DNA of 64,000 bases, taken from assembly GCF_024171955.1 (NCBI RefSeq), contig NZ_JAMTCS010000002.1:235300-299299 (forward strand), written 5' to 3'. Made by a program: the position numbers and the translations under genes. Below are positions 11,717 to 21,314 of this stretch, one piece after another. The notes under the pieces were generated by a model. That model ran no database searches. It had not been told where the DNA came from and saw only the letters and a program-made list of their open reading frames with translations. Numbering within the stretch: the stretch's first letter is position 1; every line of letters starts with the position of its first letter. The stretch is from Promicromonospora thailandica. Its GTDB lineage: Bacteria; Actinomycetota; Actinomycetes; Actinomycetales; Cellulomonadaceae.

Positions 11717-11754
11717 AGTGGGCATGCGCCCACTAGCGTGGGCGCATGCCCACT
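11717..11754 (+). promoter_or_regulatory. double palindromic operator with leaderless promoter for the methyltransferase
   Basis: A perfect inverted repeat with 17-base arms, AGTGGGCATGCGCCCAC (11717-11733) and its complement (11738-11754), separated by TAGC. Each arm is itself a palindrome, GTGGGC-N4-GCCCAC, the size expected for a TetR dimer site, so two dimers could bind side by side. The -10 hexamer TAGCGT (11734-11739) lies between the sites and the methyltransferase ATG at 11746 lies inside the right-hand site. The operator would therefore directly occlude a leaderless start. Confidence 0.75.
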
Positions 11755-12618
11755 TCAAGGATGCCGGACTCCCATCTGCACCGCGGAGCCGCCGAAGGGT
11801 TCGGGGCGGACGCCGAACGGTACGACCGTGCGCGGCCTGTGACGCCCCGGCCGGTGGCGGACGCCGTGCTCGCCTACCTGGCCGGCGGACCGCTGGGCGC
11901 GGGCTACCCACCCGCGGCGGCGTCGGCCCCCGCGGCACCCCCGCGCGTGCTCGACGTCGGGATCGGCACCGGCCTGTCCGCGCTCCCGTTCCGTGCCGCC
12001 GGGGCGCACGTGCTCGGCGTCGAGGCCGACCCGCGCATGGCGGCCGTGGCGCGCGGGCGCGGCCTGGACGTCGAGGTGGCCCGGTTCGAGCAGTGGCAAC
12101 CGGCAGGCCGGACGTTCGACGTCGTGGTCTCCGGCATGACCTGGCACTGGGTCGATCCCGTCGGCGGGGCCGCGCAGGCGGCCCGCGTGCTGCGGGACGG
12201 CGGCGTGCTCGCCGTGTTCTGGCACGCCGCGGACCTCCCGCCGACGCTGCGCGAGGCCTTGCACCGCCTGTACTCGACCGCGCTGGAGGGCACCCCGGGT
12301 GCCGCGATGTACACCCCTGGTCGCTCCGCGGCGGACGGGTACGAGGCGATGCTGGACAGGGCGCAGGACGGGCTGACCGAGGCGGGCGGGTTCGCCGCAC
12401 CGGAGCGCCTGCGGCACCACTGGCAGCGCCGGTACACCGTGGCGGAGTGGCTCGACCAGGTGCCGACGTCCGGCGGGTTCGGCCGCCTGCCCGAGCCGGT
12501 GCAGCGGGTGGTCCTGGACGGCACACGATCCGCCCTGGACGGTGACCCGGCGGTCAGCAACGGCGCATTCACGGTGGACCACACCACCGTGCTGCTGGCG
12601 GCGCGCCGCGTGGGCTGA
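11746..12618 (+). CDS. class I SAM-dependent methyltransferase
   Basis: A 290-residue methyltransferase. The SAM-binding motif VLDVGIGTGLSALPF is near residue 67, the acidic end of strand 2 is VEADPRM, and the motif IV-like VVSGMTWHWVDP resembles the ubiquinone/menaquinone and trans-aconitate type enzymes. The substrate cannot be read from the sequence. The start is the ATG six bases after TAGCGT, a leaderless arrangement within the TetR operator, so the gene is probably induced when the divergent repressor binds its ligand. A detoxification or specialised-metabolite role is possible but is only inference from the repressor pairing. Confidence 0.82.
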   Translation: MPTSRMPDSHLHRGAAEGFGADAERYDRARPVTPRPVADAVLAYLAGGPLGAGYPPAAASAPAAPPRVLDVGIGTGLSALPFRAAGAHVLGVEADPRMAAVARGRGLDVEVARFEQWQPAGRTFDVVVSGMTWHWVDPVGGAAQAARVLRDGGVLAVFWHAADLPPTLREALHRLYSTALEGTPGAAMYTPGRSAADGYEAMLDRAQDGLTEAGGFAAPERLRHHWQRRYTVAEWLDQVPTSGGFGRLPEPVQRVVLDGTRSALDGDPAVSNGAFTVDHTTVLLAARRVG

Positions 12619-12706
12619 TCCCGCCGGACCGTATTCCCTGACGCCGTCATCGTTCCCGCCCTGCCGCCCGTCAGGATGTAGTGAGCAGGGAGAGGGGGCG
12701 TCACCG

Positions 12707-14431
12707 ATGGCGCAGTGGGAGATCGAGCTCGAGGAGCTCATGGCGCGGCGCAGCCGCGCACTGGTCGGGTACGCGTACACGCTGACGCGGAACACGACGC
12801 AGGCCGAGGACCTGGTGCAGGACGCGCTGGTGAAGGTGTTCTCGCGGCTGCGGCGGCCGCGCGAGCTGGACGGACAGGTCGTGGACCTGGACCGGGACCA
12901 GCCGCAGCTGACCAACGCGGAGGCCTATGTGCGGCGCGCCATGCTGACCATCTATCTGGACGGCTACCGCCGCAGCACGAGCTGGGCGGGCATCAAGCAC
13001 CTGCTGGCCGACGAGGAGCACGAGCCGGCGGCGGAGCGGGTCGCGACCGCCAAGGTGGACGTGGGCATGGCGCTGGCCCGGCTGTCGCCGCGGCAGCGCG
13101 AGTCGGTGGTGCTGCGGTTCTTCGAGGACATGACGGTGCCGCAGATCGCGCAGACGCTCGGCACGAGCCCGGGCACGATCAAGCGGCACCTGTCCAACGC
13201 GATGGAGCTGTTGCGCGGGTCGCTGGCCGAGATGACCGTTCCGGAGATGGACACGGCGTTCGAGGAGCGGCTCGGCGCGGTGTCCGGGTCGGTGCGCCGT
13301 CGTCGGGCGGCGAAGGTGGGGGCGCTCGGGGGTGCCTCGCTCGTGGTCGCGGGCCTGCTGGCCATGGCGGCCCTGTGGGGGCCGGGCCGGCTCCTGTCGG
13401 AGCCGGTGCCGCCCGCGGAGCAGGGCTCGGTCGGCGGGCAGGCGCCGGAACCGTGGACCGACCAGGGGGCGCAGTACCGGTGCGGCATGGAGGTCACGGA
13501 GCTGACGTCGACGGCCGACACGGTCGAGCTGACGCTGACCGGCGACGTGACGGCCGACGAGTACGGCCTGTCCGTGCCCGTGCAGATCAGCCGGACCGAT
13601 ACCGACGGCCCCGAGCTCAGCGGCGGCGAGCCGATGCTCGTCTTCGCGAAGGACGGCCAGGTGGTCGACCTCGGACCGGGCTGGCACGAGGGCGGGTACG
13701 GGCTGCCCGGGGCGGGCGAGTCGGTGGACACCGTCGCCACCGCGCCCGCGACGACGGCCTGCGGCGACTGGACGGTGGGCGCGATCGCCAACACCTACCT
13801 CGACCCGCGCCCGGCGGGCACGTACGACGTCTACGCGGTCCTGCCCTACGGCACGGACTCCGAGGCGCAGATGGCCGTCAGCGAGCCCGTCAGCATGGAG
13901 GTGCCCGCGGTCGAGGTGCCGGAGGAGGAGCCGCTGACGGTCGACATCCGCGACGGGTACCAGCCCGAGTGGCTGACGGGCACGGAGCTGCAGTGCGGCG
14001 CCCACGCGTCGGACATCCCGGCCGGGCCGCGGGTGCCACGGGTGCGCGACAACCTCGAGCTGTCGGCGGAGACCAGCGGCGAGTCCCTGGCGCCGTCCGA
14101 GGTGACGATCACCGTCGAGGAGACGGCGGGCGAGGCCGTCGACACCACCCGCACGCCGTTCACGCTGGTCTGGCTCAGCGCGGGGCGCGTGGTCGGCGTC
14201 GGCCAGGACGTCTGGTCGGCGCCCGAGGAACCGCTGCGGGTCGAGCCCGGCGGGCAGGCGTCCGTCGTCGTCCCGGTGGAGCCGGACACGAGCTGCCTCA
14301 CCGATCCCGAGGCCGGCCTGCCGGACGGTGCGTACACGCTGTACGCCCTCACGCAGCTCGACCCGGGGGCGGACGGCGAGCCCCGCTACCTGGCGGTCGA
14401 GGCCGTCATCGACTACCTCGTGGGGGAGTGA
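12707..14431 (+). CDS. SigE-family sigma factor fused to a membrane segment and large extracellular domain
   Basis: A single 574-residue reading frame. Residues 1-~175 are an ECF/SigE-family sigma factor: region 2 (RALVGYAYTLTRNTTQAEDL) and region 4 (LSPRQRESVVLRFFEDMTVP, then GTIKRHLSNAMELLR). A basic stretch (VRRRRAAK) follows, then one membrane helix at about 206-226. The remaining ~345 residues lie outside the cell and hold two related modules beginning near 255 (YRCGMEV) and 413 (DGYQPEWL). In the neighbouring loci the same two parts are separate, stop-start-coupled genes, so this is a fusion of sigma factor and partner. ATG 12707 has GGGAGAGG upstream and matches the paralogue start. 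In-frame ATGs at 13232 and 13247 could give a separate partner protein. Confidence 0.85.
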   Translation: MAQWEIELEELMARRSRALVGYAYTLTRNTTQAEDLVQDALVKVFSRLRRPRELDGQVVDLDRDQPQLTNAEAYVRRAMLTIYLDGYRRSTSWAGIKHLLADEEHEPAAERVATAKVDVGMALARLSPRQRESVVLRFFEDMTVPQIAQTLGTSPGTIKRHLSNAMELLRGSLAEMTVPEMDTAFEERLGAVSGSVRRRRAAKVGALGGASLVVAGLLAMAALWGPGRLLSEPVPPAEQGSVGGQAPEPWTDQGAQYRCGMEVTELTSTADTVELTLTGDVTADEYGLSVPVQISRTDTDGPELSGGEPMLVFAKDGQVVDLGPGWHEGGYGLPGAGESVDTVATAPATTACGDWTVGAIANTYLDPRPAGTYDVYAVLPYGTDSEAQMAVSEPVSMEVPAVEVPEEEPLTVDIRDGYQPEWLTGTELQCGAHASDIPAGPRVPRVRDNLELSAETSGESLAPSEVTITVEETAGEAVDTTRTPFTLVWLSAGRVVGVGQDVWSAPEEPLRVEPGGQASVVVPVEPDTSCLTDPEAGLPDGAYTLYALTQLDPGADGEPRYLAVEAVIDYLVGE

Positions 14432-14461
14432 CCAACGATTCGCTCGCGGTGCGCGTCATGG
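14432..14461 (+). promoter_or_regulatory. ECF-type promoter CCAACG-N16-CGTC
   Basis: CCAACG (14432-14437) and CGTCATGG (14454-14461) are separated by 16 bases, the classical spacing and sequence type of ECF sigma promoters. It begins at the stop codon of the fused sigma gene and lies 45 bases before the next sigma factor start, so autoregulation is likely. Near-identical elements precede 18159 and 19081. Confidence 0.6.
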
Positions 14462-14506: not shown

Positions 14507-15082
14507 ATGGCGGCATGGGAAAGCGAGCTCGATGAGCTCATGCGGGCCCGCGGAGGCGCCCTGGTCCGCTACGCCTACATGCTCTCGGGCGACCGCGCGC
14601 TGGCCGAGGACCTGGTCCAGGACGCGCTGGTGAAGGTCTACTCGCGGCTGCGCCGCCCCGGCCGGGGCGGCGCGGTCGGCGTCGCCGCGGGCAGCCGCGC
14701 GCACGACCTGGACTCCCCGTTCACGAACGCGGAGGGCTACGTGCGGCGTGCGATCCTCACCATCTACCTGGACGGCTACCGCAAGCGGCAGCGCTGGGCC
14801 GGGATCAAGCACCTCATGGCCGACGACCCCAGCACCCGCGGCGCCGACCAGGCCGCCTCGGCGCGGGTCGACGTCATGGCGGCGCTCGCCCGGCTCGGGG
14901 CCCGCGAGCGCGCCTGCGTGGTGCTGCGCTACTTCGAGGACATGACGGTGCCGCAGATCGCCGAGGCCCTGGGCACCGCCCAGGGCACGGTCAAGCGGTA
15001 CCTGTCCGACGCCACCAAGAACCTGCAGGAGATCCTGCGACCCGACGACTTCCGACCTGCCGAGGGGAGGGCCGCCCGATGA
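14507..15082 (+). CDS. SigE-family RNA polymerase sigma factor
   Basis: A 191-residue ECF-type sigma factor. Region 2 is seen as RYAYMLSGDRALAEDLVQDA and region 4 as ARERACVVLRYFEDMTVPQI followed by GTVKRYLSDATKNL. There is no region 3 and no region 1.1. ATG 14507 is chosen over GTG 14501 because a G-rich Shine-Dalgarno run precedes it and the start then aligns with MAQWEIELEEL of the fused paralogue. The stop overlaps the ATG of the membrane partner (ATGA), so the two are made together. It should direct polymerase to a small envelope-related regulon including its own promoter; the signal is unknown. Confidence 0.92.
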   Translation: MAAWESELDELMRARGGALVRYAYMLSGDRALAEDLVQDALVKVYSRLRRPGRGGAVGVAAGSRAHDLDSPFTNAEGYVRRAILTIYLDGYRKRQRWAGIKHLMADDPSTRGADQAASARVDVMAALARLGARERACVVLRYFEDMTVPQIAEALGTAQGTVKRYLSDATKNLQEILRPDDFRPAEGRAAR

Positions 15083-16746
15083 GCCACGACGACCTGAACA
15101 ACGACTTCCTGAGCGGCGCGCTCCGTGGCGCAGCCGACGCGATGCCCGGTGGGGAGGTGGACGACCTGAACGTCTCGTTCGGAGTGGTCCGGGACCGCGT
15201 GCGACGCCGCCGGGCCGTCAAGGTCGGCGGTCTCGCCGGCGCCAGCCTCGCGGTGGCGGGGGTGCTCGCCTTCGGCGTGACCCAGTCGCCCGTGTGGAAC
15301 ACCACGGAGCCGGTCCTGCCCGGTGACCCGAGCACGTCGGCGTCCGCGGACCCCGCACCGACCGGTCCGCCCGCGACGAGCGTGATCACCGACGGCTACG
15401 CGCCGCAGTGGATCGCGGACCTCGGGCTGGGCCTGGAGTGCGGCATGCCCGTGGAGGACCTGACGACGACGGCGGACGGGTGGACGGCGGCCGCGGGCGG
15501 GGACCTGTACGGGCGGACGTCGGACCAGGGCGGCGACGCGGTGCCGAGCCGGCACATGGCCGCGACGGTCGAGGGCGGCGCGCTGGACGTGCCGCCGGTG
15601 CTGGTGTGGAGCCAGGACGGCCAGGTCGTGGACCTCGGCTCGAACGTGTTCGGGGGGTCGACGCCGGCCGAGCCGCTGCTCGGTGGCGGCGACGGCACCG
15701 TCCAGGCCGAGAGCGGCGCGTACACGACGTGCGCGCCGTCCCAGGGCGACGCGGGCGACGAGTACCAGACCCCGCTGCCCCAGGGTGACTACGAGGTGCG
15801 TGTCGTCGCCTTCCCGCAGGTCGACGGCGGGTGGGGGGCCGTGGTGAGCGACCCGGTCGCGGTGCGGCTCGACGCCGACGGCGCCCACACGCCGACCGGC
15901 ACGCGCGGCGGCGCGGCCACGATCGAGATACCCGGACCGGCGGACGGCGAGATCACGCGGTTCGAGCTCGACCGCACGACGGCCTGGGCCACCGCGGGGC
16001 AGACCTGGCGCGGCTACTCGTCCGACGCCCCCATGCAGGTGGTCGGTGCGTGCGAGAGCTCCGACCCGCAGGACGTGCTCCCGCTCGAGGTCGTGCTGCC
16101 CTCGACGGGCGACGTCCTGGTCACGGCGCAGCTCACCTGCGACGGCGAGGAGACCACCGAGCCGCTCGGCGTCCTGTCGGGCGGGGAGAACGCGCTCGAC
16201 CTCCGCCTGGTCGACGTGTCCGACGGCACCGCGCGGGCCTGGGTCTCGCTCCAGCCCGCGGCCTCGGACGACAGCGCGGGCGCCTGCTCCGCCGAGGGCA
16301 CGGACCTGCGGTGGGACCCGGCCAGGTCGCCGGGCGCGGCGGCCGGCGCGACCGCCGAGGCCCTCGTGAACGCGGCACTGGCCTGCGACAGCGCACAGCT
16401 CGTCGAGCGGGCGAACCAGGATGGTACGGAGGTCATGTTCGGCGAGACGGTCGACCAGATGTTCGCGCTGCCCGACACGGACACGCAGCGCTACCGCACG
16501 CTGGTCGCCCTGCTGGCCGGGACGACGGGCGCGGTCGACAGCGACACCGGCGACGTCCGGTGGCCCCGCGTCGCGACGCCCGAGTTCCGGGACGACGACG
16601 CGGCCTGGCAGGAGGTCGTGGACGCGGGCCTCCTGACCCAGGAGGACGCCGATGCCCAGCGCGCCGACGACGTGTTCGGCTACACCGGCATGACGATCGC
16701 CATCGGCGCGGACGGCACCTGGTTGTACTACACGCCGACCGACTGA
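15079..16746 (+). CDS. membrane partner of SigE-type sigma factor, large extracellular domain
   Basis: A 555-residue protein with a short cytoplasmic N-terminus (about 45 residues ending in RVRRRRAVK), one membrane helix (about 48-70) and ~480 extracellular residues. Outside the membrane it has a DGYAPQWIADLGLGLECG module (from ~100), a central beta-rich region and a C-terminal module (about 402-555) beginning with a Cys and ending YTGMTIAIGADGTWLYY. The C-terminal module recurs in the proteins at 18159 and 19665. No zinc-type anti-sigma motif (HX3CX2C) is present. Coupling to the sigma gene suggests an anti-sigma or sensor role, which is inference; I recognise no named family for the extracellular part. 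Confidence 0.75.
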   Translation: MSHDDLNNDFLSGALRGAADAMPGGEVDDLNVSFGVVRDRVRRRRAVKVGGLAGASLAVAGVLAFGVTQSPVWNTTEPVLPGDPSTSASADPAPTGPPATSVITDGYAPQWIADLGLGLECGMPVEDLTTTADGWTAAAGGDLYGRTSDQGGDAVPSRHMAATVEGGALDVPPVLVWSQDGQVVDLGSNVFGGSTPAEPLLGGGDGTVQAESGAYTTCAPSQGDAGDEYQTPLPQGDYEVRVVAFPQVDGGWGAVVSDPVAVRLDADGAHTPTGTRGGAATIEIPGPADGEITRFELDRTTAWATAGQTWRGYSSDAPMQVVGACESSDPQDVLPLEVVLPSTGDVLVTAQLTCDGEETTEPLGVLSGGENALDLRLVDVSDGTARAWVSLQPAASDDSAGACSAEGTDLRWDPARSPGAAAGATAEALVNAALACDSAQLVERANQDGTEVMFGETVDQMFALPDTDTQRYRTLVALLAGTTGAVDSDTGDVRWPRVATPEFRDDDAAWQEVVDAGLLTQEDADAQRADDVFGYTGMTIAIGADGTWLYYTPTD

Positions 16747-16753
16747 CCGGCAG

Positions 16754-16797
16754 GTGTCAGACGCTCAGGTCGCACCCGTGACCTGAGCGTCTGACAC
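16754..16797. terminator. bidirectional hairpin, GTGTCRGACGC palindrome family copy 1
   Basis: Arms GTGTCAGACGCTCAGGTC (16754-16771) and its exact complement (16780-16797) around an 8-base loop. It lies between two convergent genes, starts 7 bases after the upstream stop and overlaps the last codons of the MpaB-like gene. No T-run follows, as is common in high-GC actinobacteria. Copies 2 and 3 are at 21316 and 41648. Confidence 0.75.
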
Positions 16798-18036
16798 GTC
16801 GTGGGGGTGGTGGCTCGCCAGGATGGCGTCGCTGCGGCGGCGGCCCCAGCGGTCCAGGCGCTCGCGGCCTCCCGGCAGCCGCCCGGCCACGCGGTACCGC
16901 CACGTGTTGAGCGGAAGCAGGTAGGCGTGGGCCCAGGGTGGTCGCAGGGGCAGCCCGAGGTCGCGCATGCTGCGCACGCCCAGGAACACCGTGAGCATCG
17001 ACAGCAGCCGCTCCTGTTCCCACTGCGCCCGCCACGGCTGCCACCAGGCGGGCCCGGGGTAGGCGCGTCCGGCCTGGGCGGCGACGACGGCGCGGGCGAG
17101 TCGGGGGCCGGCGTCGGACACGCCCGCCTGCGCGAGCAGCACGTGGTAGTTGATCCGGTGGCGCGCCCACTCGTCGTCGACCAGGAAGTCCGGGTGCACC
17201 CCCAGCAGGTGGCCCACCCACTTCCACAGGTGCATGAGGGCCCGGCTGTCCGACGGCGGGACGGGCACGCCGAGCGCCCGGCAGCCGAGGATGACGGTGC
17301 CGTCGAACAGCCCGAGCGTCGCCGCCTGGTCGGCCTGGTTGACCGGGAGGCCCCAGCGGGCGGTGTCCCACGCGCCCGTAGCACTGAACGACGCCCCGAC
17401 CAGGGCGTGCGTCACCCGCACCTGCACGGTCGCCTGCCAGGCGGGGCCGCCGGGCCGGAGCGCGCCGGGCTCGGACAGGGCGACCGTCCACTCCTGCGTG
17501 CGGGCGAGCCGCTGCAGCGTGCCGCCGGTCAGGGCGCCGGTCGCCGCGAGCAGGTCGGTGGGCCCACCGAACCGGTACCCGCCCACGAGCGAGAGCTGGA
17601 GCAGCACGTCGGCGGCGTTCTGCCCGAGCCTGCGCAGCACGGCGGCCCCCTGGTCCACGAGGTCCCAGTCCGCCCACCCGGGCACGGCGGCCACCTCCCG
17701 CAGGAACCTTTTCAGGGCCGCGGGCCGATCGCCGAGGTCGGTTGGTTGTGGCGAGGTCGGCACAGGCCTGGACCGATCTCGCCACAAGGGGCCGACCTCG
17801 GCGAGGGCTGCCCTGAGCTGGGCATGGGTGACGCTGCCCTCGCTCCCCCGGGGGAGGCGCAGGGCGGCGGCCAGGGCTGCCGCCGGCTCGTCCTGCTCGT
17901 GGAACGCCCGGCCGATCCGTTCCAGCAGCGCCTCGTCCACCCCACGCACCCGGCCGAGCAGACGCAGCGGCCGGCCGATCCGGGTGCCGCGTGCCTCGGC
18001 GGAGCGGTACCGGAGCGGGTACGCCGTCGCGGTCAT
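16765..18036 (-). CDS. MpaB-like (DUF2236) oxygenase family protein
   Basis: A 423-residue protein resembling the ER-bound oxygenase MpaB / latex-clearing-protein superfamily (DUF2236). It has several histidine-bearing helices (THALVGASF; WGLPVNQADQAATLGLFDG; LMHLWKWVGHLLGVHPDFLVD) expected to hold a b-type haem. The substrate is unknown. ATG 18036 is used; a longer frame has no better start. Two oddities: residues ~79-102 are encoded by a 72-base hairpin that looks like an inserted palindromic element, and the last residues (VSDAQVTGAT) are encoded by the shared terminator palindrome. It lies opposite to, and inside, the sigma-factor array. Confidence 0.65.
   Translation of the reverse strand: MTATAYPLRYRSAEARGTRIGRPLRLLGRVRGVDEALLERIGRAFHEQDEPAAALAAALRLPRGSEGSVTHAQLRAALAEVGPLWRDRSRPVPTSPQPTDLGDRPAALKRFLREVAAVPGWADWDLVDQGAAVLRRLGQNAADVLLQLSLVGGYRFGGPTDLLAATGALTGGTLQRLARTQEWTVALSEPGALRPGGPAWQATVQVRVTHALVGASFSATGAWDTARWGLPVNQADQAATLGLFDGTVILGCRALGVPVPPSDSRALMHLWKWVGHLLGVHPDFLVDDEWARHRINYHVLLAQAGVSDAGPRLARAVVAAQAGRAYPGPAWWQPWRAQWEQERLLSMLTVFLGVRSMRDLGLPLRPPWAHAYLLPLNTWRYRVAGRLPGGRERLDRWGRRRSDAILASHHPHDVSDAQVTGAT
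17731..17802. repeat. 72-base imperfect inverted repeat inside a coding sequence
   Basis: Outer arms GCCGAGGTCGG (17731-17741) and CCGACCTCGGC (17792-17802) are perfect complements. Inner arms TTGTGGCGAGGTCGG (17746-17760) and CCGATCTCGCCACAA (17773-17787) differ at one base, and the loop contains CAGGCCTG. It is in frame within the MpaB-like gene. The encoded 24 residues are charged and proline-rich, unlike the flanking helices, as if a REP-like element had inserted without breaking the frame. Confidence 0.65.
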
Positions 18037-18082
18037 GCCACCATCCTGACCCGCCCGCGGGTCTGCCGGCGAGCAGCGCCAC

Positions 18083-18113
18083 CCAACGGTCCGGGGGTGA
18101 CGGAGCGTCATGG
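18083..18113 (+). promoter_or_regulatory. ECF-type promoter CCAACG-N17-CGTC
   Basis: CCAACG (18083-18088) and CGTCATGG (18106-18113) with a 17-base spacer. The two boxes are identical to those before the sigma gene at 14507. It lies 45 bases upstream of the stand-alone membrane protein, placing that gene in the presumed regulon of one of the neighbouring sigma factors. Confidence 0.55.
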
Positions 18114-18158: not shown

Positions 18159-18965
18159 ATGAACCAGGACCACAACCGCGTGCACGACCTCGGCGTCGGC
18201 ACCACGGCCGAGCCGACCCGGCAGGAACGGCGCCGGCAGTGGGCCCGGCTGGGTGGCGTCGGCGTCGGCGCCGTCGCGCTGGTGGCCGCGCTGGCGTTCG
18301 GGATCGTCCAGCTCGCGCCCGGCCAGGCGGACGCGGCGGGCACGGGCGGCAGCCAGCAGGACACCCAGCAGGACACCCGGCAGGGCACGGAGCAAGCCGG
18401 GGCCGGCAGCACGGCTGCCCCGGTCGGCGAGGTGTCGGCGGAGCCCACCGAGCCGGCCTCCGAGCAGGAGACCGACCCGGCGGGCGACTGCTCGGCCACG
18501 GGCATCACCCCGCTCCACCCCACGGGCAACGCCCCGCACGACGGCGCCGCCGCGGCCGCGGCCTCGATCGTCACCGCGGCGAGCGCCTGCGACGAGGACG
18601 CCCTGGTCGCGCTCGCGGCCGACTCGACGACCGAGCTCATGTTCGGCCTCGAGACCCCCGAGCAGACCTTCGCGCTCCCCGAGGCGGAGCACCGGGACCA
18701 CTACCGCACCCTGGTCACGCTGCTGGGCAGCACCCGCTCCGCGGTCGCCGGGGGCCCGGCGGACAACCCGACCGTCGTCTGGCCGCGCGTGGCCACCGAG
18801 GAGTTCCGCGACGACGACGCGGCGTGGCAGGAGGTCGTGGACGCGGGCCTCCTCACCCAGGAGGACGCCGCCGCCCAGCGCGCCGACGAGACCTTCGGGT
18901 ACACGGGCATGGTCGTGGGCATCGCCGCGAACGGCTCGTGGCGCTACTACTCGTCGACCGACTGA
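18159..18965 (+). CDS. stand-alone membrane protein with the C-terminal sensor-like module of the sigma partners
   Basis: A 268-residue protein: ~27 cytoplasmic residues, a membrane helix at about 28-50, a Gln/Thr/Ala-rich linker, then one extracellular module (about 111-268) starting with a Cys. The final 60 residues (WPRVATEEFRDDDAAWQEVV ... YYSSTD) are nearly identical to the end of the protein at 15079, also at DNA level, implying recent duplication or gene conversion. No sigma factor gene is attached. ATG 18159 has AGGAG eight bases upstream. Function unknown; it may compete for the same extracellular ligand or be the regulated target. Confidence 0.72.
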   Translation: MNQDHNRVHDLGVGTTAEPTRQERRRQWARLGGVGVGAVALVAALAFGIVQLAPGQADAAGTGGSQQDTQQDTRQGTEQAGAGSTAAPVGEVSAEPTEPASEQETDPAGDCSATGITPLHPTGNAPHDGAAAAAASIVTAASACDEDALVALAADSTTELMFGLETPEQTFALPEAEHRDHYRTLVTLLGSTRSAVAGGPADNPTVVWPRVATEEFRDDDAAWQEVVDAGLLTQEDAAAQRADETFGYTGMVVGIAANGSWRYYSSTD

Positions 18966-18979
18966 CCGGACCCGCACCG

Positions 18980-19005
18980 CCCCGCTCGCACCCCCGCGAG
19001 CGGGG
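18980..19005 (+). terminator. intrinsic-type terminator hairpin
   Basis: CCCCGCTCGC (18980-18989) and GCGAGCGGGG (18996-19005) form a perfect ten-base stem 15 bases after the preceding stop codon. No clear T-run follows. Confidence 0.6.
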
Positions 19006-19022
19006 CATCGTCGTGCCCGGCC

Positions 19023-19050
19023 CCAACCCGGCTGCCCGCTGGTTCGTCGG
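19023..19050 (+). promoter_or_regulatory. ECF-type promoter CCAACC-N16-CGTC
   Basis: CCAACC (19023-19028) and CGTCGG (19045-19050) with a 16-base spacer, 30 bases before the sigma factor start at 19081 and just after the terminator at 18980. It is the third member of the promoter set in this array. Confidence 0.5.
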
Positions 19051-19080: not shown

Positions 19081-19668
19081 ATGGGCTGGCACGAAGACCT
19101 GGAGCTGCTCGCCACGGAGCGGGGTGGGGTGCTCGTCGGGTACGCCTACACGCTGTGCGGCGACGTACGGCAGGCCGAGGACCTGGTGCAGGAGGCCCTG
19201 GTCAGGTACTGCTCTCGCCTCGTGCGTCCGGGCGGACGACGCGGCCGGGCCGCACCGGGCATGCAGGCGGTGCCGCTGGACGGACCCGACGAGCCGGAGC
19301 GGCGGGCCGTGCGGCACACGGAGGCGTACGTACGGCGGATGGTGCTGAACCTCTACCTGGACGGCTGGCGCCGCAGGAGGCGGTGGTCCGACATCGAGCC
19401 GCGGGTCGCCGTGGACGACCACGTGCGCTTCCCCGACTCGGGCATCACCGCCCGCGCCGACGTGGTGCGGGCGCTCGACCGGCTCACACCCCGGCAGCGG
19501 GCGTGCGTGGTGCTGCGCTACTTCGAGGACCTCTCGATCGAGCAGGTGGCGGACCGGCTCGGGAACGCCCCTGGCACCGTCAAGCGCCACCTCCACGACG
19601 CACTGCGCGTCCTGCGCGACGTACTGGAACCGGCCGGATCGGCCTCGGCGGAAGGGGCACTGCGATGA
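19081..19668 (+). CDS. SigE-family RNA polymerase sigma factor
   Basis: A 195-residue ECF-type sigma factor, paralogous to those at 12707 and 14507. Region 2 is VGYAYTLCGDVRQAEDLVQE and region 4 TPRQRACVVLRYFEDLSIEQ followed by GTVKRHLHDALRVLR. The linker between regions is longer and divergent. GGAAGGAG at 19067-19074 supports ATG 19081. The stop overlaps the ATG of the next gene (ATGA). Preceded by its own ECF-type promoter, so probably autoregulated. Confidence 0.92.
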   Translation: MGWHEDLELLATERGGVLVGYAYTLCGDVRQAEDLVQEALVRYCSRLVRPGGRRGRAAPGMQAVPLDGPDEPERRAVRHTEAYVRRMVLNLYLDGWRRRRRWSDIEPRVAVDDHVRFPDSGITARADVVRALDRLTPRQRACVVLRYFEDLSIEQVADRLGNAPGTVKRHLHDALRVLRDVLEPAGSASAEGALR

Positions 19669-21314
19669 ACCACGACGACCACGGCTGGGTGGACCCCGCG
19701 GACGCGGGCGTCCTCAAGCAGGCCCTCGGCGCGATGGCCGGCGGGGTGGACCCGGCGTCGGCCACCGGGCCGGCGGCGACCCTGCCCGCGATGAGCCGGC
19801 GGGTGCGCCGTCGCCGCACCGTGAAGGCGGGCGGCCTCGGCGGCGGTGCGCTGGCTCTGGTGGGCGCACTGGTGCTCGGCGCGGCGCAGCTCGCGCCGCC
19901 GGACACGTCCGAGGTACCGCCGGGCTCCGGCGCGCCGGAGCTCCGGGTCCAGGACGGCTACCAGCCGCCCTGGCTCGCCGGGACGGACCTGACGTGCGGC
20001 ATGCCGGCGGCCGACCTCGAGACCACGGCACCCGGCTGGTCGGTCGCCGTGGCGGGCGACCTCTATACCCGGACGGCGGAGCCTGGTGGCTCCGCGGCAC
20101 GCAGCTGGGGCCTGGCGGCCACCTACCGGGAGGGGGCAGGCTCGCTCGAGACCGCGCCCGTGCTGGTGTGGAGCCAGGACGGGGAGGTCGTGGACCTGGG
20201 GCCGTCGGTCGAGAGGAGCCGTCCGGCCGAGCCGCTGCTCGGCGGTGGTGACGGCACCGTCGAGGCCGTCGGCGGCCCGGCGTCCACGTGCGCGCCCTCG
20301 ACGTCGGGCGACGACCCCGACTTCGAGACGCCGCTGCCCGCGGGAGAGTACGAGGTGCGCGTCGTCGCCCTCCCGGAGAGTGAGGGGCGGACGGGCACGG
20401 TGGTCAGCGACGCGGTGCGGGTCCGTCTCGACGTGGACGGCGCGCACGTCCCGGGTACGCCCCGGACCGCCGGGCCGCGGTTCGAGCTCCCGGAACCTGT
20501 CGCGGGCCAGGTGGCGCGCTTCGAGCTGGACCGCACGACGGACGAGCACACGGCGACGCTGACGCGGGGCAGCACTCTGCCGACCACACCGATGCGGGTC
20601 CTCGCCGTCTGCGCGAGCACCGACCCGGAGGACCTGCTGCCCGTCGAGGTAGTGCGGGCCTCGACCGGCGACGTGATCGGGGCCGGCCAGGTCACGTGCG
20701 ACGGCCACGAGGCCGGCTCCGAGCTCGCGGACCTGGACACGGCCGGCGCCGGCGAACCGGTCGACCTCCGCCTCTCCGTGCCCGACGGTGCCTCCCGGGT
20801 CTGGGTCTCGTTCGAGCCGGCGACGCCGGTGGGCGGGGACGACGGCCCGGAGTGCTCGGCGAGGGGCTACGAGCCGGACTACCCCGTCGTCGACGCGATG
20901 ACCCAGGAGACCTGGGCCACGGCGGGGAGCATCCTGGTGCTGGCGCAGGTCTGCGACGCCGACGCGCTCGCCGCCTACGCGAGGCAGCACGGAGCCGAGC
21001 TGATGGACGGTGCCGCGTCTCCGGAGGAGACCTTCGCGCTGCCCGAGACCGACCGTGGGCGCTACCGCGCGCTGGCCGGCCTGGTCGGCGGGACCACCCC
21101 CGCGTTCTCGGACGGCGGCGCGGACGCATCGGTGACCTGGCCGCGGGTCGTGACCCCGGAGTTCCAGGACTCGGACGAGTCCTGGGCCGAGCTCGTGGCG
21201 GCGGGCGTGCTCACGCAGAAGGAGGCGGACGCCCAGCGGGTGACCGGCTACACGGGTCCGCGCGTCGGCATCACGGTGTCCGGAGACTGGCTCTCCTACA
21301 CCACCGGCGAGTGA
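19665..21314 (+). CDS. membrane partner of SigE-type sigma factor, large extracellular domain
   Basis: A 549-residue protein with the same plan as the one at 15079: a cytoplasmic stretch of ~52 residues ending in RRVRRRRTVK, a membrane helix at about 54-76, an extracellular DGYQPPWLAGTDLTCGMPAA module, a central region sharing ETPLPAGEYEVRVVA and RFELDRTT motifs with the paralogue, and the C-terminal Cys-starting module (about 397-549) ending YTGPRVGITVSGDWLSY. Sequence divergence from the paralogue is moderate, so the duplication is older than that behind 18159. Translationally coupled to the sigma gene; an anti-sigma or sensing role is inferred. Confidence 0.75.
   Translation: MNHDDHGWVDPADAGVLKQALGAMAGGVDPASATGPAATLPAMSRRVRRRRTVKAGGLGGGALALVGALVLGAAQLAPPDTSEVPPGSGAPELRVQDGYQPPWLAGTDLTCGMPAADLETTAPGWSVAVAGDLYTRTAEPGGSAARSWGLAATYREGAGSLETAPVLVWSQDGEVVDLGPSVERSRPAEPLLGGGDGTVEAVGGPASTCAPSTSGDDPDFETPLPAGEYEVRVVALPESEGRTGTVVSDAVRVRLDVDGAHVPGTPRTAGPRFELPEPVAGQVARFELDRTTDEHTATLTRGSTLPTTPMRVLAVCASTDPEDLLPVEVVRASTGDVIGAGQVTCDGHEAGSELADLDTAGAGEPVDLRLSVPDGASRVWVSFEPATPVGGDDGPECSARGYEPDYPVVDAMTQETWATAGSILVLAQVCDADALAAYARQHGAELMDGAASPEETFALPETDRGRYRALAGLVGGTTPAFSDGGADASVTWPRVVTPEFQDSDESWAELVAAGVLTQKEADAQRVTGYTGPRVGITVSGDWLSYTTGE

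Follow-up and report, generated by a model that had tools for sequence, protein, structure and literature searches.

A SigE-like sigma factor and its membrane partner joined in one polypeptide in Promicromonospora: a candidate one-protein transmembrane sigma factor

Sigma factors and anti-sigma factors are normally separate proteins, and how a sigma factor may be restrained by a partner that lacks a recognisable anti-sigma domain is the question bearing on the gene described here. Exceptions have been reported. According to its published account, IutY of Pseudomonas putida (ECF243; ECF, extracytoplasmic function) is a sigma/anti-sigma hybrid in which the sigma factor is restrained by its own C-terminal part, and its release by Prc and RseP has been tested. 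ECF48, ECF52 (SCO4117) and ECF53 of Actinobacteria are described as sigma factors with a C-terminal transmembrane helix and an outside extension, for which proteolytic freeing was proposed; a zinc-finger anti-sigma domain is described for all three groups and a carbohydrate-binding module in addition for ECF52. We analysed a 64,000-nucleotide stretch of the Promicromonospora thailandica genome (contig NZ_JAMTCS010000002.1; hereafter the window), in which a gene at positions 12707-14431 encodes a sigma factor, a transmembrane helix and an ectodomain in a single chain.

Like IutY, the fused protein combines an N-terminal cytosolic ECF sigma factor, a transmembrane helix and a C-terminal outside domain. 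Unlike IutY, as far as the latter is described, it has an actinobacterial host, its sigma factor is SigE-like, and its outside part consists of two beta-rich modules homologous to neighbouring membrane partners. The fused protein shares the C-terminal transmembrane helix and outside extension of ECF48, ECF52 and ECF53, but its residues 176-205 contain neither Cys nor His and match no Pfam zinc finger, and a carbohydrate-binding module of the kind described for ECF52 was not found by Pfam at E 0.001. The fusion of a sigma factor to a membrane partner is thus already known in kind, and what sets this one apart is the missing zinc-finger domain and the different ectodomain. Titles and abstract openings in the open literature searched gave no account of the Promicromonospora fusion; the ECF classification papers may catalogue it.

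The frame, read directly, runs from an ATG at 12707 to a TGA at 14429-14431 and comprises 574 codons with no stop in between. A ribosome-binding-like sequence, AGGGAGAGGGGG, precedes the ATG (12687-12698; forward strand, as for all parts of the fused gene and the genes of the split pairs below). Residues 1-175 (12707-13231) form an ECF sigma factor with sigma2 and sigma4 domains, as judged from Pfam, AlphaFold helices and Foldseek. Membership of the ECF (sigma70) family was confirmed with TIGR02937 (67.4 bits, cut-off 42.9). The original prediction had called this a complete SigE-type sigma factor; both domains pass their Pfam cut-offs (Sigma70_r2, 26.6 bits against 24; Sigma70_r4_2, 55.0 against 25.7), but the best NCBIfam match, TIGR02983 (SigE family), scores 108.8 bits, below the curated cut-off of 141.55, and the SigE label therefore holds loosely. 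The sigma factor of the first split pair is likewise under this cut-off (125.5 bits). The sigma factor is followed by a cytoplasmic juxtamembrane segment (residues 176-205, 13232-13321), homologous to the cytoplasmic end of the split partner and carrying RRRRAAK near its end. A transmembrane helix at about residues 206-226 (13322-13384) was assigned from hydrophobicity (a 19-residue stretch of mean Kyte-Doolittle value 2.01, starting 28 residues past the sigma factor) and from the second structure model described below. The remaining 348 residues or so (13385-14428) would be extracytoplasmic, with a stalk and two beta-rich modules recognised from model strands and the partner match, and the protein is probably oriented N-in/C-out.

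The original prediction of a one-polypeptide fusion named a search of related genomes as a check, with two separate genes in all orthologues as the outcome that would speak against it. This search yielded 26 fused genes, present in all 13 Promicromonospora genomes (that of the window and G001-G012, of which G010 is 83% complete), and a purine-rich stretch was seen by eye ahead of every one of them. The 26 fused sigma factors form one clade (support 100/99) that contains no split sigma factor in a tree of 105 rows. We conclude that the fusion is real. The same open frame in 13 genomes rules out a frameshift or assembly artefact and makes a local sequencing error very unlikely; with 26 genes in a single clade, we regard the merging of two genes by an assembly or sequencing error as having a negligible probability. 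The alignment of the fused proteins is gapless across residues 120-220 (25 of the 26 were aligned, all except L053:2503, of 429 residues). Median ratios of nonsynonymous to synonymous substitution rates (dN/dS; 24 of the 25 aligned rows, with L045:2681 omitted) were 0.33 for the sigma factor, 0.43 for the juxtamembrane segment and 0.39 for the transmembrane helix. Together with the gapless alignment, the values at the junction indicate that it is translated and kept.

A profile search across the family (221 genomes, with the scoring of six candidates in each, E <= 1e-60) gave near full-length single-frame matches, among the matches listed, in Promicromonospora only, while those listed from other genera stop by about position 200. 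A scan of named genomes, covering the best 80 of 294 relatives and including some records identical to genomes of our own set, gave 77 loci with 138 sigma frames. Twelve of these frames are fused, and all twelve belong to Promicromonospora, where seven of eight loci contain them. Seven further genera, from the family or the order, had split array sigma factors in every case read (14/14). Start positions in the locus readings and in the tests built on them were extrapolated from an alignment; a number of split rows therefore start ahead of their real initiation codon, and one of these crossed a stop there. G001 also carries a short frame (L045:6570-7313) with a sigma fragment and part of the ectodomain without the transmembrane helix, which looks like a decaying duplicate; this fragment (L045, near 6569) was omitted from the partner-overlap and repeat tests below and counted among the 52 split rows of the promoter analysis.

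The two adjoining paralogous loci had been predicted to keep the same parts as ATGA-coupled gene pairs, and both overlaps were found, at 15079-15082 and 19665-19668. The first pair consists of a sigma factor (14507-15082) 60% identical to the fused one and a membrane partner (15079-16746) homologous to the fused protein, and the second of a sigma factor (about 19081-19668; 48% identical) and its partner (19665-21314). Overall, a transmembrane partner begins at the sigma stop for 50 of 51 split sigma factors, by an ATGA overlap in 42 and otherwise in eight (seven GTGA, one ATG two bases on); beside the remaining one the search found no partner. The fused protein shares with the neighbouring pairs a homologous sigma factor, the RRRR-transmembrane segment and an outside module, whereas the pairs comprise two genes, and in their partner the N-terminal residues are preserved and the C-terminal part is a different one. 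The partner at 15079-16746 aligns with residues 169-401 of the fused protein (35% identity, E 8e-17). The alignment begins at residue 15 of the partner and residue 169 of the fused protein, the latter lying within the last sigma4 helix; the short tail of the sigma factor and roughly 14 residues from the N-terminus of the partner therefore seem to have been lost. Tree and alignment support a single origin of the fusion in this lineage, from two genes that overlapped, followed by retention and duplication. In the fused ectodomain, each half matches one and the same module of the partner (E 8e-17 and 2e-9), which suggests a module duplication; compared directly, the halves showed no significant similarity to each other. 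By eye, some fused paralogues carry another C-terminal part that resembles that of the split partners. We also considered whether the fusion arose through recombination at a short repeat, in phase, shared by the end of the sigma gene and the start of the partner gene, and rejected this: over 50 pairs, such repeats were on the whole no better than in codon-shuffled controls (a mean fraction of 0.42 of the shuffles did as well), and a few single pairs did beat all 60 shuffles.

The array of 11 of the 12 congeners holds another type of split sigma/partner pair that is missing from the window genome. At 18159-18965 the window encodes a lone membrane protein with no sigma factor ahead of it, whose C-terminal stretch resembles the partner at 15079-16746 by eye; a sigma factor once ahead of it may have been lost in this genome.

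It had been proposed that the tethered sigma factor would need either proteolytic release or an alternative start at ATG 13232 (M176) or ATG 13247 (M181) to work. Neither codon is conserved: M176 occurs in three and M181 in 16 of the 25 aligned fused proteins. Moreover, an internal start would yield the partner without a sigma factor and not a free sigma factor. Such a start could still give two products, with a separate partner acting as in the split pairs, and ATG 13232 does lie within an ATGA as in those pairs, while several fused genes that lack M181 show a GTG at that codon (junction listing, by eye). The scarcity of M176, the absence of M181 from nine of the 25 proteins and the lack, by eye, of a well-spaced ribosome-binding stretch ahead of either codon make this improbable, and the full-length fusion would be made regardless.

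Ahead of the fused gene lies a promoter-like box, CATCGTT-N14-CGTCAG (12648-12674, forward strand), whose two halves we take to be ECF-type -35 and -10 elements. Boxes of the same spacing precede split sigma factor 1 (14433-14459) and split sigma factor 2 (19024-19050). A general form, C[AT][AT]C[GC]NN-N14-CGT[CT], precedes 25 of the 26 fused genes, at a distance of 52-60 nucleotides from the start codon, and 38 of 52 split sigma genes, whereas a shuffled set gave 0.29 and 0.27 genes, respectively; as the pattern was drawn from rows within the genus, the counts for the genus are not independent of it. Among independent rows from other genera, which had not been used for the pattern, 11 of 14 split genes carry the box. 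The exact box was matched 17 times across the 13 genomes, and 15 of these sites precede fused genes; the reversed pattern gave no match. In the window genome the exact box occurs once, at 12648. The presence of the box upstream of fused and split genes suggests autoregulation. Neither of the two other exact matches is convincingly ahead of a gene by eye. Three one-mismatch sites were found in the window genome, of which that in L221 lies 111 nucleotides ahead of an ATG with an AGGAGG stretch.

Two AlphaFold models were calculated, one of the whole protein (574 residues, 25 sequences; mean predicted local distance difference test score, pLDDT, 69.5) and one of residues 1-233 (63 sequences, mean pLDDT 65.4). 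The first is confident for the two outside modules, with beta strands and block means of pLDDT mostly at 70-93 past residue 250, and falls below 50 in residues 161-244. The second places sigma helices at residues 3-49, 70-89 and 114-175 and a single helix at 183-223 that runs through RRRR and the transmembrane segment, with pLDDT below 50 in 179-210. Foldseek with the 233-residue model matched ECF sigma factors and did not tell a bound from a free state. Outside the sigma part, ectodomain included, Pfam gave no match at E 0.001; for the ectodomain, Foldseek returned loose immunoglobulin-like matches with template-modelling scores of 0.06-0.26, which we did not take as an identification.

Our preferred reading, to which we assign a probability of about 0.62, is a one-protein transmembrane sigma factor that would be freed by regulated proteolysis and act in positive autoregulation. 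The short arginine-rich helix running into the transmembrane helix would hold the sigma factor at the membrane until the two-module ectodomain is engaged or cut, which would lead to site-1 cleavage and then to release of the sigma factor by a site-2 (M50) protease. The freed sigma factor would bind RNA polymerase and fire its own upstream box together with further targets. The protein would thus probably sense something outside the cell; the path from extracellular ligand to promoter choice in the original prediction is, in this reading, a putative one. As the anchor itself would be the restraint, sigma factor and restraint would be made 1:1, and each release would use up one sensor.

Several observations weigh against this reading. 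The release step is argued by analogy with IutY. M50 proteases are present, but their occurrence in all 14 control genomes as well means that this says little. Linker and transmembrane helix are the least confident region of both models, so that these give no inhibitory contact. With 15 of the 17 exact boxes at fused genes, the exact-box search in the 13 genomes identified no target beyond autoregulation, G006, G010 and G011 had no exact match, and one type of split sigma factor, with 11 members in the genus, lacks a box altogether, which argues against all array members being alike. Constraint is weak on the stalk (median dN/dS 0.95) and the ectodomain (0.60; 24 rows), and some fused copies are truncated, to 472 residues in G001 and 429 in G009. 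These short copies, the sigma fragment in G001 and the loosely constrained ectodomain might also be what a decaying, functionless relic would leave behind. Yet the sigma factor, juxtamembrane and transmembrane segments are under purifying selection, the promoter-like box is retained, and every one of the 13 genomes holds a copy that spans at least positions 1-575 of the 586-position profile; we therefore consider a relic very unlikely.

Alternatively, the sigma factor could stay attached and work from the membrane; a signal that shifts the juxtamembrane helix would then allow the still tethered protein to bind RNA polymerase. Membrane regulators of the ToxR/CadC type offer a comparison. The length of the juxtamembrane segment is constant in the 25 aligned fused proteins and similar in a second class of fusions (below), this segment and the transmembrane helix were modelled as one helix, and the few neighbours scanned (a methyltransferase at 11746-12618 and an MpaB-type protein at 16765-18111) included no protease. 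The continuity of that helix has low confidence, however, and the fused sigma factor for which there are data, IutY, is released by proteolysis. An attached mode of action is thus an unlikely, though not negligible, alternative to proteolytic release.

The second class of sigma-transmembrane-ectodomain fusion is represented in the window genome, outside the window, by P0002 (647 residues, L005:1375-3315, that is G000:C7:270695-272635), which scores 166.2 bits with TIGR02983, above the cut-off. The 50 loci read contain 51 sigma frames, of which at least 33, P0002 included, belong to this class; they are spread over 12 of the 13 genus genomes, and none was seen in G002, with 20 candidates scored per genome. 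The ten of these 33 taken into the tree form a clade of their own (100/98) apart from the first class, so that the tree requires two changes and hence separate origins. A third fusion with a different outside part (L270, G285:C16:37209-38762) was among the matches listed in a class-wide search of 394 genomes with seven candidates scored each, and belongs to another genus of the class; 49 class-wide loci were read, a few of which overlap and 20 of which had been chosen on account of long open frames. Within the genus of G285, eight of 118 genomes match at E 1e-60, three over most of the length in one frame and five as separate or partial pieces. All three classes end in a similar way: beyond sigma4 come 20 to 30 residues, then a stretch rich in arginine, then a transmembrane helix. 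It is tempting to speculate that SigE-like pairs repeatedly become one-protein transmembrane sigma factors, a general one-component architecture in which tethering by itself keeps the sigma factor off and no sequestering anti-sigma domain can be recognised, although we hold this only tentatively and think it rather less likely than not to hold in general.

That fusions have arisen repeatedly suggests that a fusion takes few steps. Stoichiometry and topology are fixed in a natural fusion, and truncation of a single gene can therefore probe tethering as a means of restraint, and the fused and split paralogues, side by side with boxes of the same spacing, allow a direct comparison within one strain.

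Two further features lie within the array. ARAGORN reported a transfer RNA of undetermined type on the minus strand at 18956-19042, which overlaps the box of the last sigma gene and is probably spurious. The MpaB/rubber-oxygenase-type protein mentioned above (PF09995, 50 bits) is encoded on the minus strand inside the sigma array.
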